From Haladaptatus sp. R4 (GTDB lineage Archaea; Halobacteriota; Halobacteria; Halobacteriales; Haladaptataceae), in assembly GCF_001625445.1 (NCBI RefSeq), contig NZ_LWHG01000029.1:248001-312000 (forward strand): a DNA stretch of 64,000 bases, given 5' to 3'. Made by a program: the position numbers and the translations under genes. Below are positions 11,666 to 24,817 of the stretch, in pieces. Under the pieces are notes generated by a model. It did not search any database. It was not told the DNA's origin and was given only the letters and a program-made list of their open reading frames with translations. Within the stretch, counting starts at the first letter, position 1. Each line of letters opens with the position of its first letter.

Positions 11666-13369
11666 ATGAATACAGTCGAACGCTGGAAACAGGAGAAACA
11701 CCCGCTCGACGTCATCGACGACGTGTACGCGTATGCCGAAGAAGGACTGTCCTTCGACGAAATAGAAGCGCGCGCCGGAGACGGCGAGTGGGAACGATTG
11801 AAATGGGCCGGGCTATACGCGCACGGACAACACGAGGATTACTTCATGCTTCGCACGAAGGCCCCGGGTGGTCGCCTCACCACGGAGCAAGCCGAAGTCA
11901 TCGGCGAAGTCGCCGAGGAGTTCGCCACCGCACCCGAGGAACACGGAGGCGACGAACAGAATCCCGTGTGGGGAGACGCCTATCTGGATATCACGACACG
12001 GCAGGACATTCAGATGCACTGGATCGAGATCGAGGACCTGCCGGAGATTTGGCGGCGCTACGACGAGGTCGGTCTCACCACCGTCCAGGGCTGCGGTGAC
12101 GGTGCTCGGAACGTGCTTGGATGTCCGGCCGCCGGGCTGTCGGAACACGAGTGTTTCGACGCACAACCCGTCATCGACGCGGTTTCGGGCTTCTTTACGG
12201 GCAACCGGGAGTACTCGAATCTGCCGCGGAAGTTCAAGATGACCATCACCGGCTGTCAGGAGGACTGTGCCCAGTCACAGATCAACGACGTCGGACTGAC
12301 GCCCGCCCGGAAGCGGATCGACGGCGAGGAGTACTACGGCTTCCACGTGAAGGTCGGCGGCGGCCTCTCCGACGGGCCACGAATGGGGTCCCCGCTCGAC
12401 GTCTTCATCCAACCGGAGGACGCAGTGGAGTTCTGCCGCGCCGTCGCGCAGGTGTTCAAGGAACTCGGCGACCGGAACAACCGCGGCGTCTGCCGGATGC
12501 GCTATCTCGTCGAACAACTCGGACCGGAAAACTTCGAAGCGGCGGTTCGCGAGCGGTGTGACGTTCCCCTCGAATCCCGTGGTACCGACCTCAGCGAGAG
12601 CTACACGGGCGACCACGTCGGCGTCCACGATCAGAAACAGGACGGACTGCAGTACGTCGGGTTCAACGTCATCGCGGGACGCATGGGCGGGGACGAGTTC
12701 GCCGAAGCGCCGGGCCGCACGGGAGTACGGAACGGACGAGGCGACGATTCGTCTCGCCACTGATCAGAACTTCCTGATTTCCCACGTACCCGCGACCGCA
12801 CCGACGAACTGATCGACGAACCGTTCGCACGCGACTATCAACCCGACCCCGGCCCGTTCTCGCGCGGTGCAGTCGGCTGTACCGGGTCGGAGTTCTGCAA
12901 CTACGGCATCATCGAGACGAAAAAGCGCGTCCGACGGTGGGCCAAGGAACTGGATGAGCGGGTCCAGACGCCGGACGGCTTGGACGTCGTTCGGATGCAC
13001 ATGAGCGGTTGTTCGGCGTCGTGCGCCCAACCGCAGATTGCGGACATCGGTTTCCGCGGCGAGACGGTGAAGGTCGAAGGCTCCGAGGAGACCACGAACG
13101 AGGAGGGCGACGCGGTGGTCGAAGGGATGGACGTCGGCCTCGGCGGCTCGTTGGGTGCTGACAACGAGTTCATCGACTGGGTCGAAACCGCGGTTCCCGC
13201 GAATGCGGTCATCCCCGCGCTCGAACGGCTCTTCGAGGTGTACGTCGAGGACCGAGTCGAGGGCGAACGCTTCTACGAGTGGCACCGCCGGGTCGGCAAC
13301 GACCGCCTCCGCGACATCATGCGCCGTGCCGACGCGCCCGTGGCGAAAGGGGTGGCGCAGGATGACTGA
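11666..13369 (+). pseudogene. Sirohaem nitrite/sulfite reductase, disrupted by two single-base indels
   Basis: Read across three frames this is a full-length (about 567-residue) ferredoxin-type nitrite/sulfite reductase. The first half has GCGDGARNVLGCPAAG and TGCQEDCAQSQINDVG, the pseudo-symmetric counterpart of the active site. The second half has the [4Fe-4S]-sirohaem ligands as CTGSEFC (C-x5-C) and CSASC (C-x3-C). The frame shifts by one base at about 12710 and returns at about 12790, so the end is again in the first frame, but a stop at about 12761 lies between. Reactions of the family are six-electron reduction of nitrite or sulfite. Its stop overlaps the next gene by eight bases, so the two were one operon. 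Sequencing error is as likely as decay. Confidence 0.9.
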
Positions 13370-14861
13370 GCGGCGGTTCCCGGGCGTTCCGGGCGAGTCC
13401 AGTTCGGCCGGTTCGTCGGACGATTGCTGTGAAGACGGCCAATGTACGTGTGCCGTGAATGAGGACGGAGCGGGTTCGTCTCCGCCACGGCTCCGCTCGG
13501 ACGGCGGGAGCACCCCCAGTAACGTCGATTCCGACGGGAGCCTCGGCGAGGTTCAGTTCACCGAACCCACGGTGGGCAAGAGTCAGAACGTCGAGGGCTC
13601 CGACGCGAATCCGACGGCCAGACCCGGCGTCCCGGAGGGCGTCGAACTGGACACGCCGGGATACTCCATCCGGAGCGAGATGAACGACATCGACACGCCC
13701 GACGAGAAGACGTGGTTCATGGAGTTGGACGAGGCGGTCATCGAGGAGGAGCGGTGTATCCAGTGTGGTACGTGTGTCGCGGCGTGTCCGTCCGATTCCA
13801 TCGGCATCGGCGACGACGGCCTGCCGGAACTGGTGAAGATGTGCACGGGCTGTTCGCTCTGTTGGGACTTCTGTCCTCGGGGTGGCCTCCGGTACGAACG
13901 ACAGTGGAAGATCACCGGCGGCGACGACAACGTGTCGGGTGCGGGTGATCCGATCACCGAGTTCTCGGCAAAAGTCTCCGATAGCTGGCGGACGAACGCA
14001 CAGGACGGCGGGATCGTGACGTCCGTCCTCGTCCACCTCCTCGAAGCGGGTGAAATCGACGGGGCGCTCGTCGCCACGGAATCCGATGAGGAACCGTGGA
14101 AGGCCGAGAGTTTCCTCGCGACGAGCCGCGAGGAGTTGATCGAGAACGCCGGGAGTTTCTACAACCAGACGATGGCGCTCGGCAATCTCGACTTGGAACA
14201 GTGGGAAGAACAGCTTCCGGACAAGGACCCGGAGGACCTCTCGCTCGCCCTCGTCGGGACGCCGTGTGAGATCGAAGGGATTCGTGCACTCCAGGATTTC
14301 GCGTGGGACCACCAGTCCCACGAGGATGGCGTTCGCGCGATCGAGTATACCATCGCGCTGATGTGCACGAAGAACTTCAACTACGAGCGGCTCATCGGGG
14401 ACCAACTGCAGGAAAAGCGGGACATTCAGCCCGAGGAGATCGGCAAACTCGACGTTCTCGACGGTGAGTTTCGAGTGTACGACCACGACGAGGAACTCAT
14501 CGTCGAGGAATCCATCAAGAACTTCCACGGTGCCACACTCAAGGGTTGTGACGAATGTGCGGACTTCACCGGCTACTGTGCCGACCTCACCGTCGGTTCG
14601 GTCGGCAGCCCGAACGAATATTCGAGCGTCATCGTCCGGACCGAAACCGGACTGAAAGCGTGGGAGTTGGCCGAACCCGACCTCGAATACGAGGACCTCT
14701 ACAGTCGGAAAGCGATCGGTAAACTACAGAGCTGGGACAAGAAAAACGCGTTCTCGTCGTTGGAACGGCAGTTCGATCCGGACGCGCCGCGGTTCATCGA
14801 GTACACGGATCACGCCGAGCAGTACGGCACCGAACCCAATCCGCACGAGGCGGACCACTAA
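13362..14861 (+). CDS. Ferredoxin-domain FrhB/FpoF-type coenzyme F420 oxidoreductase subunit
   Basis: The 499-residue protein has an N-terminal low-complexity region of about 110 residues with a cysteine cluster (C22, C23, C28, C30). Two [4Fe-4S] motifs follow, CIQCGTCVAACP (C132 to C142) and CTGCSLCWDFCP (C161 to C171). The remainder is the F420-hydrogenase beta-subunit fold, with LALVGTPCEIEGIRALQDF (about residues 287-305) and a later cysteine group KGCDECADFTGYCADL. Homologues move electrons between F420H2, flavin and Fe-S clusters. It overlaps the reductase gene by eight bases. In methanogen F420-dependent sulfite reductase the same two halves are fused, so this pair may be a split version; that is inference. 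Confidence 0.85.
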   Translation: MTERRFPGVPGESSSAGSSDDCCEDGQCTCAVNEDGAGSSPPRLRSDGGSTPSNVDSDGSLGEVQFTEPTVGKSQNVEGSDANPTARPGVPEGVELDTPGYSIRSEMNDIDTPDEKTWFMELDEAVIEEERCIQCGTCVAACPSDSIGIGDDGLPELVKMCTGCSLCWDFCPRGGLRYERQWKITGGDDNVSGAGDPITEFSAKVSDSWRTNAQDGGIVTSVLVHLLEAGEIDGALVATESDEEPWKAESFLATSREELIENAGSFYNQTMALGNLDLEQWEEQLPDKDPEDLSLALVGTPCEIEGIRALQDFAWDHQSHEDGVRAIEYTIALMCTKNFNYERLIGDQLQEKRDIQPEEIGKLDVLDGEFRVYDHDEELIVEESIKNFHGATLKGCDECADFTGYCADLTVGSVGSPNEYSSVIVRTETGLKAWELAEPDLEYEDLYSRKAIGKLQSWDKKNAFSSLERQFDPDAPRFIEYTDHAEQYGTEPNPHEADH

Positions 14862-15078: not shown

Positions 15079-15507
15079 TCAGCGGCTCGATACGACGCGC
15101 TCGATGAGTCCGTCGAAGTCGTCGTCGAAGCTCAACACCGCATCGATACCGCGGGACTCGCACAGATGAATGATGCTCGCGTCCGTGAAACTGAGGTTCT
15201 GATCCTCATATCGGCGAAACGTCTCCAGCGCGGCTGTAACCTCGTCCGGTTCGACGTGGAGTAGTTCCAAGACGTTCGGAAACGAGTCTTCACCGAGGAT
15301 ACGACGTGCCACCGTGTTTGCGGCCTCGAACGACCCAGTTCGAACGCGGGTTAGCGTTACCACCTCGTCCAGTACGTAGTCGCTCGTGTACGGCTGACCG
15401 TACGTTCCATCCAGCAGTTCGTCGAACGCAGCAACTGCTTGCTCGTGGCGCTCTGCGTCCGTATCATGATGTGCAAAGAGGACGCCGGTATCGACGAAGA
15501 CACTCAT
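15079..15507 (-). CDS. PIN-domain toxin (VapC family)
   Basis: The 142-residue protein is a PIN-domain nuclease: MSVFVDTGVLFAHHD gives the first acidic residue, DYVLDEVVTLT the second, and NLSFTDASIIHLCESRGIDA plus LSFDDDFD the last ones. Such toxins cleave RNA, often tRNA, in a Mg-dependent way. It overlaps the upstream antitoxin gene by four bases (ATGA), the standard arrangement of a toxin-antitoxin pair. Confidence 0.9.
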   Translation of the reverse strand: MSVFVDTGVLFAHHDTDAERHEQAVAAFDELLDGTYGQPYTSDYVLDEVVTLTRVRTGSFEAANTVARRILGEDSFPNVLELLHVEPDEVTAALETFRRYEDQNLSFTDASIIHLCESRGIDAVLSFDDDFDGLIERVVSSR

Positions 15508-15779
15508 CCGTACAGTACGTCGTCGATATCTTCTTCGGTCGTCGTGGTGCCGGACGAAACCATTCCCTCGTGGAACGTCTCTCGCTCGGTTCTGGAAAGA
15601 GGGACTCGTTCTTCGCGGAACGAATCCACGAGATCCGCTTTCGATTCGATCGCGTTCTCGACGAGCCGGGCCAAAATCGTCTGCTGTGTCACTTTCCGCC
15701 CGGTTTTCAGTCGGATTTCGGCCTGTAACCGTTCGAGACGGGATTTAGTGTCGTCGTCCATCTTCACCGAAGTCGTCAT
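15504..15779 (-). CDS. Antitoxin of the PIN-domain toxin (ribbon-helix-helix-like)
   Basis: The 91-residue protein opens MTTSVKMDDDTKSRLERLQA, a ribbon-helix-helix-type DNA-binding start, and continues with a charged acidic C-terminal half (EREREV-like residues, ending DIDDVLYG) that should wrap the toxin. The N-terminus should bind the operon promoter for autoregulation. The pair is inserted between unrelated transport and redox genes. Confidence 0.82.
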   Translation of the reverse strand: MTTSVKMDDDTKSRLERLQAEIRLKTGRKVTQQTILARLVENAIESKADLVDSFREERVPLSRTERETFHEGMVSSGTTTTEEDIDDVLYG

Positions 15780-15903: not shown

Positions 15904-17330
15904 TCAGTTGACCGGCGTCGTCCGGGAGGATTGACCGATGACGACCTGTCCGGCGACCAGTACCAGCACCGCGATACCGACGCCGAGGATGGTCGCTGGC
16001 ACGCCCAGTAGTGTGCCTCCCGTTAGCTTCGTGCCGATGCCGAATATCGCCCCGAGAACCATCGAGGAGAGGATGACTCGGCCGTCGATTCCCCGCCAGT
16101 ACAGCGCGACGTACACTGGAACCAGGAGTCCGGTGGTCAGCAGTACCGCCCTGAAATCGTACAGGTCGAAGATCGATCCGGGCGGGGACGCGCTGATAGC
16201 CGTCGCGAGAAGTCCGAATCCGATGGTGGCGGCCCTCGAAATTTTCAGTTGATGGGCGTCGGACGTGTCCGGGTTGAAGTAGTCGTAGATGTCCCGCGTG
16301 AGCGTCACACCGATGGAGTGTAACCGGGTGTCGGTCGTCGAGAGGATGGCGCTCATGATTCCGAGGATGACGATGGTTCCCAACGTGGTGGGGAGAACCC
16401 GCATGATGAGAACGGGAAACGCCCGGTCCGTATTCGAGACGGTTATCCCGGCGTTGTGGAGCGCGACGCCGGTTGCGGCACCGAGGAGCGACGTGACGAC
16501 GAGGAACATCGCGATGATGACGCCACCGGCGGCGATGTGGAACTTCGTCGTTTCGATGTCCTTCGTCGCGTTGATGCGGATGATGACGTTCTGGCCCGTG
16601 AAGATGGTCCCGAAGAAGGCGACGATTGAACTCACGATGGTGATCAGGGTGTACGATCCACCGCCGAGCGGTGTAACGTTGGAGGGGTCGATGGCGGCGA
16701 ACTGTTGGTTCATCGCCGTGAGACGCCCAGATCCGTGACGAGGTACACCACCGCGGCCGTCATCAGCGCGACCATGACGGTTCCCTGAAGGAGGTCGGTC
16801 CACGCGACGCTCACCAACCCGCCGAGCACCGTGTAGACGATGAAGACGAGACCGATCACCCACACCATGTACTCGTACGGAACGCCGGTGATTTCGGTCA
16901 CCAACACGCTCGCGCCGACGAGTTGAATGACGAGATACACCCACGCGTTACTCAACAGGAGAAAACCGGTGACGGGACGGGCGTACTGTCGTCCGGTGAC
17001 GTTCGCGACGATGTCCGAGAGGGTCACCTTGTTCAACTCCCGTATCTTGTGCGAGACGAAATAGAGGCCGCTCATGCCGAGTGCGAGTCCGAAGTTCACG
17101 CCGACCATGATGGCGTAGCCCGTCTTCGAAAACTCGCCGATGACGCCGATAGCGGCGACGGCGCTGAAGAAGTTCGCGACGAGCGACCACGTCGCGAGCC
17201 ACTTCCCGAGGTTTCGGCCGTACACCCAGAAATCGTCCTTCGTGTTCGTTTTCAGGTATCCCCACGCGCCGATAGCGAGGACGATGAGGAGGTAGAGAAC
17301 GAACGCGGCGAGATACGTTCGATTCACCAT
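15904..17330 (-). pseudogene. Sodium:solute symporter (SSS family), frame-shifted
   Basis: Two overlapping frames make one symporter of about 475 residues. The first 200 residues (MVNRTYLAAFVLYLLIVLAI, then DDFWVYGRNLGKWLATWSL) contain the first membrane spans and the conserved N-terminal region. After VTDLG at about 16728 the frame changes and the protein continues with NQQFAAIDPSNVTPLGGGSY to the end. The join costs one base. The family uses the sodium gradient to import sugars, amino acids, or organic acids; the substrate is unknown. The start overlaps the stop of a 48-residue membrane protein. Treat as broken unless the base is confirmed. Confidence 0.88.
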
Positions 17331-22873: not shown

Positions 22874-24817
22874 TTATGCTGTGGTCGTGTTCGTTTCGTC
22901 CGAGAAGTCGGGTTGGCCGAGTTCCGTCCGGCGTTCGTGCGTCTTTCCGGGTTTGGTTCGTTCGACGAACGCTTCCCAAGCCTTCCCGTTCGGAAAGTGC
23001 ATCACGCCGTCGTCATCCCAGATGTAACCCGCTCGTTCCAGGATTCTCCGCGCGCGCTTCGGATCGTACTCGTAGTGTTTGACGCCCGTTGCGTGCCACT
23101 TCGTCAGTTCCGAAATGTAGTTCTCGCCGTCCGGAACCGTCGCCTCGCCGAGCAGCACGTCGTCGACAAACTGTTTTTTGGGGAGTGATTTTGCGAGGGC
23201 GACGCGGAACTCCTTGTCCCGAATCAGCGGGTTCGAGTGCATGAGTTTCACGGCGACAGGGGCGAAGTTCTTCGTCGACATCCGTTCGATGTGGGCCGAG
23301 TTCGCGGCCCGGTCGGCTTGGGTGTTCGAGAGCGTCGTCCCGATGGCGTCGAGTTCCTCGTTTTTCAGCGCGCCGATCATCGCGTCGATGTTCCCGACGT
23401 TGATCCAGACCACGCGCTCGATTCCCGGACCGCTCACGGCAACGTCACCGAGGTGGTTCCGCCGCCACTCGTCGTCGAACATCCAGTGGCCGTCGTTGCG
23501 CGAGACGGCGAATCGGGTTCCTTGATCCCAATCCTCGAATTCGAACGGGCCGGTTCCGACGGGGGAGCCCGGATTGTGCTGCGACGGCGTTTCGATGTCC
23601 TTCCAGCGGTGTTTCGGAACGATGATGCTCCGGACCATGCGCTGGTCGTGAACGAAGCGTCGGGGCGTTTCAGTTCGAACCGGACCCGCGAGTTCGAGAG
23701 TTTCTCCACCGACTCGATTGGCTCGTAAAACGTCCCCTGACTCGTCGACGTCTTCTCGATGTAGAGGTTCGTCGAGGAAGACGACGTCGTCGGCGCTGAA
23801 CGGTTTCCCGTCGTGCCACTCGACGCCGTCTCGAAGCGAGACTTCGACGGTGGTGTCGCCGGTGAACTCGGCGCTCGTCGCCAATCCGGGGATCACTTCG
23901 AGCGACGGGGACGCGTCGAACAGTCCGTCGTAGATGAACTTGAGACGCGCCTCCTCGGCCCCACCGGCGGACCAGGGGAGGTTGAGCGAGTTCATCGAGG
24001 TCGAAACCCCCTTCACGTACGTCCGCTCGTTCGTTTTCGGTTGGAGGTTCACCTCCGTCCACTGGAACGAATCGCCCGTCGGCCCGTTTCCGGGCGTCGG
24101 AACGTATCCCTTCCACTTGTCGGTGTTGACCGCCGTGATCACGTTCGGAAACAGCGTGATTATGTCGCCGACGTCCTCGCCGAACAGCCGCTGAACCTTC
24201 GAAACCAGCTTCTTGCGCTTTTCCTCTTCGCCGGTCATCTGGCGCTGTTTTTCGAGGAGCCGATTGATCCGGTCGTCCCAATAGTTCGTGTAGTTCGAGG
24301 AGTTCTCCTCGTACAACCGCATCAGGAACGGGTTCGGGTCGAGTCCGCGCTGCGGGTCCGGACCCTGCGAACTCATCGAAATCATGTTTTCGAGCCCGCC
24401 GGTCTCCCAACTCTGTGCGTACAGTTGGTTGAGCGGCCGGTCGATGAGCGTCATCGGGGCTCCCAAATCGCCGAGCGCGCGCCGAAACATCAGCGCGTGT
24501 TCGCGCATCCAGGGGTCGTCCTCGCTCGAATATTCGACCGTGATCGGATCGAGCCGTGCACCTGCCGATGCCGTGTACTCCATTCCAGGTGCGTCGGCGT
24601 CGATGGTCGGCCAATCGTGCCAGTACCGTGTTTCGACCGAGCGCGGGACGCCCGAAGGGACGTTCGCCGCGATGGATTCCCCGGCGTTGCCGTTACACCC
24701 AGCTAACGACCCGACTGCGGCCGTCGTAGCGAGAGCGGAAGAGAGATATCTCCTGCGTGAGAGCGTCCCCTCCTGACCGTTTGCCTCTGTTGATCTCCCA
24801 TGTTCTTCCATGGACAT
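22874..24817 (-). pseudogene. Peptide-type ABC substrate-binding lipoprotein (SBP family 5) with a cryptic internal double frameshift
   Basis: A continuous 647-residue frame exists, with a Tat signal (LSRRRYLSSALATTAAVG) and lipobox SLAGC, then the two-lobed peptide-binding fold. Between about 23770 and 23655, however, the main frame is out of register: another frame reads NLYIEKTSTSQGTFYEPIES and then VEKLSNSRVRFELKRPDASF, which fits the family better than the main-frame DEPLHREDVDESGDVLRANR. About 38 residues are therefore scrambled by one insertion and one deletion. It is the receptor for the fused-ATPase importer downstream. A minus-strand TATA-like CCATATAAAG near 24885 may drive the operon. 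Confidence 0.8.

Follow-up and report, generated by a model that had tools for sequence, protein, structure and literature searches.

Gene organization at the locus

The window analysed here, a stretch of 64,000 nucleotides from Haladaptatus sp. R4, contains on its forward strand a gene for a sirohaem-reductase-type protein (alpha), directly followed by a gene for an FrhB-type protein (beta). Alpha starts with an ATG at 11666 and ends at 13369, beta extends from 13362 to 14861, and Pfam identified PF03460 and PF01077 repeats in the upstream gene, in agreement with the gene order put forward in an earlier sequence-only reading of this DNA. Also as described there, the stop of alpha and the start of beta overlap by eight bases (ATGACTGA, 13362-13369). 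An overlap of either 8 or 11 bases is found in nearly all relatives, which suggests translational coupling of the two genes. Just downstream of beta, on the reverse strand at 15079-15779, a PIN-domain-like gene of the VapC type is located together with a short upstream partner, probably a toxin-antitoxin pair as judged by eye.

A pair restricted to this genome would have refuted the sequence-only reading, but a search among haloarchaea showed that alpha lies directly upstream of beta in all 20 sampled genomes. The same holds for 79 of 80 named loci, with one alpha cut by a contig end. This pairing is far from chance. At more than 60% identity, beta was present in 83 of the 294 sampled Halobacteria genomes; note that the raw tally of 221 genomes is inflated by weak ferredoxin matches. 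The closest named relatives, with 81-82%, belong to Haladaptatus, where the pair is located on plasmids or a second chromosome (L134-L136), a hint of mobility. A beta gene lacking an adjacent alpha was observed in Halobacteriales archaeon YIM A00010 (L163), a genome that also holds a normal pair (L151). Alpha and beta form a two-gene unit. A conserved metabolic neighbourhood did not emerge, apart from siroheme genes that adjoin the pair in a few cases, CbiX and SUMT at L038, L041 and L140 and SUMT at L146 and L150. Other recurrent neighbours look positional.

Architecture of alpha

Unnoticed in the sequence-only reading, alpha is not one open frame as assembled; frame translations showed that it is disrupted by two small deletions and a stop. 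Frame A encodes residues 1-348 (11666-12709) with the first repeat (Pfam NIR_SIR, E=1.3e-40, and NIR_SIR_ferr). At about 12710 two bases are missing with respect to relatives, where the sequence E-A-A-R-A-A-R-E is expected, and the protein continues out of frame with the segment RAAREYGTDEATIRLATDQNFLISHVP (12711-12791), identified from the frame translations and the sequence of the relatives. Frame A meanwhile runs into a TGA at 12761-12763 that ends its called ORF. At about 12790 a single further base is missing, reducing CCCC to CCC, and from 12791 to 13369 the gene is back in frame A and encodes the second repeat (NIR_SIR, E=3.3e-14).

With two NIR_SIR repeats alpha is an aSir/NirA protein, as are its intact relatives, and Pfam detected no Fer4 domain in it. 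The cysteines for the sirohaem-[4Fe-4S] centre, C406-x5-C412 and C450-x3-C454 in read-through numbering, are located in the second repeat (12791-13369) and are invariant in 75 of 75 relatives. Three further cysteines, C153, C197 and C201 (window 12122, 12254 and 12266), mirror this site in the first repeat; they are present in all alphas of the group described here (group A), in 16 of 17 alphas of a second group (group B, see below) and in both other copies of the genome, are absent from the plant reductases aligned, and possibly represent a degenerate or extra Fe-S site. An additional metal site formed by C163, C257, C276 and C298 was considered and rejected, because C276 alone among the four is invariant, with independent losses of the other three.

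Architecture and family of beta

Beta is an intact protein of 499 amino acids that consists of an N-terminal tail, a ferredoxin dicluster and an FrhB/F420-oxidoreductase domain. The two [4Fe-4S] ferredoxin motifs and the FrhB-type fold named in the sequence-only reading were both recovered by Pfam: the Fer4 models cover C132/C135/C138/C142 and C161/C164/C167/C171-P (13734-13880), all in invariant columns, and the FrhB models PF04422 (E=6.1e-22) and PF04432 (E=1.2e-33) match the domain at 13956-14696. Here the [4Fe-4S] ligands C302, C335, C396 and C399 and the stretch Q214-D-G-G are invariant or nearly invariant throughout the family, such that beta retains the ligands of three Fe-S clusters in addition to the QDGG stretch. 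The N-terminal cysteines C22, C23, C28 and C30 are present as claimed, forming a motif C-C-x4-C-x-C (13425-13451) within a linker rich in D, E, S and G that varies in length. Of the group A betas examined, 18 of 20 contain a similar motif, as do 65 of 78 named loci, but all 17 betas from group B lack it.

An AlphaFold2 model of residues 111-499 built from 84 sequences was of good quality (pLDDT 91.4, pTM 0.91) and identifies beta with confidence as an F420-type flavoprotein, while an earlier one from 8 sequences was poor (pLDDT 48.8). In Foldseek searches with the good model the leading matches were 8riu (E=3.8e-28), the Fsr structure 7np8 (2.7e-23), 8rja (3.3e-23), 7npa and FrhB (6qgr, 4.7e-21).

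The sequence-only reading had regarded the pair as a split version of methanogen Fsr, and this did not withstand a tree of 57 FrhB-family proteins. All haloarchaeal betas of groups A and B form a single group with a support of 100/100, outside the Fsr N-termini, which constitute a separate group (95/89), and also outside FqoF/FpoF, FrhB and the CODH type. Since the tree sets the betas apart from the Fsr N-termini, beta is to be seen as a protein of the F420 family rather than a detached half of Fsr. The reductase domain type leads to the same rejection, as alpha is a two-repeat protein of the aSir/NirA type while the corresponding half of Fsr is Dsr-like with a single repeat. In a tree published in 2012, aFsr-beta grouped with FpoF/FqoF and FGltS(I) (PMC3448663); our tree agrees that beta stands apart from Fsr, but shows no support for that grouping.

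Integrity of alpha, substrate and electron donor

The stop in frame and the two deletions that break the frame are what a true pseudogene would display, with beta as a remnant, and another sulfite-type reductase is retained in the same genome on contig C31; such decay would concern this genome only and leave the question of the family's function untouched. Both deletions however fall within G/C runs, one of them a homopolymer, and when codon usage was scanned over about 86 kb of coding sequence on the contigs of this genome (the window and L078-L080), the frame switched internally 13 times, as opposed to 4 times over the 283 kb taken from 20 relatives. Frameshifts, also in unrelated genes, are therefore some tenfold more frequent here than in the relatives, and the scan yields a lower bound, as it missed both indels in alpha, only 80 bases apart, and took the break in a symporter gene at about 16722 for a junction between genes. 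Many unrelated genes also appear to be frameshifted, at 16700-16730, 23650-23770, 36104, 40786 and 49257 of the window and at 12051-14805 of L078; CbiX and a gene for a sodium:solute symporter-like protein are examples, and the pattern fits indel errors in the assembly. Against its relatives the disrupted alpha shows a dN of 0.14-0.17 and a dS of 0.88-1.03, and the resulting dN/dS of about 0.16 is not above that between intact relatives, with no relaxed selection visible. The out-of-frame segment is conserved and aligns residue by residue with the relatives, and every one of the 78 named loci with a readable alpha carries the gene intact. Because the contigs carry frameshifts at about ten times the rate of the relatives and alpha shows no relaxed selection, sequencing errors are the likeliest cause of the deletions, and we consider a pseudogene unlikely.

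For the reaction of the pair, the sequence-only reading had offered reduction of nitrite or sulfite with F420H2. The link to F420H2 and the assignment to two gene products are supported by the fold, the cofactor residues, the pairing and the F420 genes, and the substrate residues point to sulfite rather than nitrite. The same two subunits might physiologically reduce nitrite to ammonia, and the best NCBIfam models for alpha are indeed those of ferredoxin-nitrite reductase/NirA; an intact relative reaches 369 bits, below the equivalog cut-off of 594. Among solved structures alpha matches plant nitrite reductases best, an FsrII from ANME archaea reduces nitrite and not sulfite with F420H2 (PMC9295563), and nitrite is also commonly reduced by sulfite reductases (PMC10229431). 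In the first repeat, however, all 75 alphas checked contain Y51 (11816-11818), R63, C143 (12092-12094), R148, K189 (12230-12232) and K191 (12236-12238), and none has the set of the nitrite enzymes NiR/NirA, that is Phe, Met or Gly, and Lys-x-Asn. Plant nitrite reductases have Met at the position of C143 and K-x-N at K189/K191, whereas NirA/SirA of Mycobacterium tuberculosis has Cys and K-x-K. Tyr51, in place of the Phe of nitrite reductases, lies outside the alignment displayed; we take it to be the equivalent of Tyr69 in the M. tuberculosis enzyme, presumably part of the substrate site. The latter enzyme is a sulfite reductase according to the title of a cited reference, and in Fsr sulfite is bound by four basic residues of the same kind as those in alpha (PMC10229431). 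Within the same genome, a separate copy on contig C11 combines the nitrite-type set F, G and K-x-N with the neighbours of a nitrate-assimilation (nas) arrangement, a molybdopterin oxidoreductase, an MFS transporter and SUMT, while the C31 copy, which neighbours CbiX and SUMT, shows the sulfite-type set Y, C and K-x-K and was assigned to sulfite by its residues and neighbours. Nitrite as the main substrate is thus disfavoured, and we regard an F420H2:nitrite reductase as highly improbable. Concerning the donor, the FrhB superfamily includes the ferredoxin-dependent 7-hydroxymethyl chlorophyll a reductase (HCAR), to which the beta model has a structural match (5dqr, E=1.4e-15), and with a ferredoxin domain of its own beta might be an adaptor of this kind that draws electrons from ferredoxin instead of F420. 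Beta is nevertheless much closer to the F420-linked members, in fold as well as in sequence (8riu, 7.9e-43; Fsr, 4.7e-37), with no HCAR among the sequence matches at E<=0.01. The solved members that combine ferredoxin and FrhB domains use F420 (PMC10229431, PMC11493965), and the genome encodes CofD and NpdG, so that F420H2 is plausibly made. A ferredoxin-dependent adaptor is therefore quite improbable, and as the F420-binding residues are not sharply defined, we infer F420 as the donor from fold and kinship.

Relation to stand-alone reductases and a second version of the pair

Among 98 genomes, a reductase of the C31 type, counted as present at 64% identity or more, was found in 6 of the 22 genomes that carry the pair, compared with 60 of the 76 that lack it (p=1.3e-5 in a Fisher test that ignores shared ancestry). 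In genus g6, one genome (G097) has only the C31 type and seven others only the pair, and in genus g13 this is the case for G020 on the one hand and G057 and G088 on the other. Without correction for ancestry, the pair thus tends to replace the stand-alone sulfite-type reductase across haloarchaea. This pattern, along with the CbiX-SUMT neighbourhood that the pair shares in some genomes with the stand-alone copy of Haladaptatus sp. R4, suggests that the pair and the stand-alone enzyme serve one and the same function with different electron donors. As ATP sulfurylase (PF01747) was not found in this genome, which is about 96% complete, the sulfite may come from outside, from thiosulfate or from the breakdown of organosulfur compounds rather than from sulfate, and detoxification is as possible a role for the pair as assimilation.

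In group B, a beta of about 400-440 amino acids with 38-50% identity is paired with an alpha of 746-843 amino acids in which two N-terminal rhodanese domains are fused to the NirA/aSir-type reductase (L058-L075). The cysteine in the LYCNTARR loop of the second rhodanese domain is kept in nearly all members displayed, and this alpha-beta pair is possibly an enzyme that converts thiosulfate to sulfide. Rhodanese-NirA fusions in haloarchaea have been noted in a survey, the relevant passages of which draw no link to FrhB (PMC11237513).

Discussion

Having weighed these alternatives, we consider it probable that alpha and beta together make up a cytoplasmic F420H2:sulfite oxidoreductase of haloarchaea, the predicted 'aFsr', with the two proteins as its subunits; the alpha gene is interrupted here, most likely by sequencing errors. 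In such a complex F420H2 would be supplied by NpdG, an NADPH:F420 oxidoreductase, and the flavin in beta would take up its hydride. From there single electrons would travel via the [4Fe-4S] cluster in the FrhB domain, and via both clusters of the ferredoxin type, until they reach the [4Fe-4S]-sirohaem centre in alpha, where sulfite would be reduced to sulfide with six electrons.

The pair itself is not new. The same arrangement in haloarchaea, an aSir-type alpha with a beta homologous to the N-terminal part of Fsr, was named aFsr and proposed for F420H2-dependent sulfite reduction by Susanti and Mukhopadhyay in 2012 (PMC3448663), and was still termed putative in 2022 (PMC9295563). The present locus shares with it the two NIR_SIR repeats, the FrhB domain with two N-terminal [4Fe-4S] motifs, and the joint encoding of alpha and beta, and differs in the disrupted frame of alpha in this assembly. 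Beyond the proposal of 2012, the analysis adds the substrate residues, the genome-wide distribution, the finding that the pair tends to take the place of the stand-alone enzyme, the cysteine motif near the N-terminus of beta and the second version with fused rhodanese domains. In the open-access literature we found no report of activity, complex formation or F420 binding for any member of aFsr.

Methanogen Fsr of group I (7NP8, 7NPA) likewise combines an F420H2 oxidase module, a ferredoxin dicluster and a sirohaem sulfite reductase, and its four basic substrate residues are the same in kind (Arg, Arg, Lys, Lys). It is however a single polypeptide rather than the product of two overlapping genes, its single-repeat, Dsr-like reductase has an inserted ferredoxin domain (PMC10229431) in contrast to the two-repeat alpha of the aSir type, and it lacks the complete second ferredoxin motif C-x2-C-x2-C-x3-C-P found in the separate clade of beta. 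A similar addition of ferredoxin and FrhB domains to another redox enzyme is seen in the F420-reductase subunits of Ca. Ethanoperedens (8RIU, 8RJA), to which beta shows some of its strongest structural similarity, although their partners are CO dehydrogenase and formylmethanofuran dehydrogenase and their physiological direction is the opposite. NirA/SirA of M. tuberculosis (1ZJ8) resembles alpha as a two-repeat sirohaem sulfite reductase in which Cys and Lys-x-Lys occupy the corresponding places of the alignment, but is a stand-alone, ferredoxin-dependent enzyme without an FrhB partner.

Haloarchaea make F420, and in 2021 a review of open issues counted only one F420-dependent reaction reported for them and called the role of the cofactor enigmatic (PMC8305020). 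The alpha-beta pair is a widespread and directly testable candidate for such a system, in which an F420 module was joined independently to a class of sulfite reductase unlike that of the methanogens. A more far-reaching picture, which we advance only tentatively and regard as rather doubtful, is that F420H2 would be a main source of electrons for sulfide in haloarchaea through two versions of the enzyme, version A with its tethered cysteine motif having repeatedly replaced the ferredoxin-type reductase, and version B carrying the double rhodanese. If this were true, version B, with its double rhodanese fused to the reductase, could split thiosulfate and reduce the sulfite on the spot.
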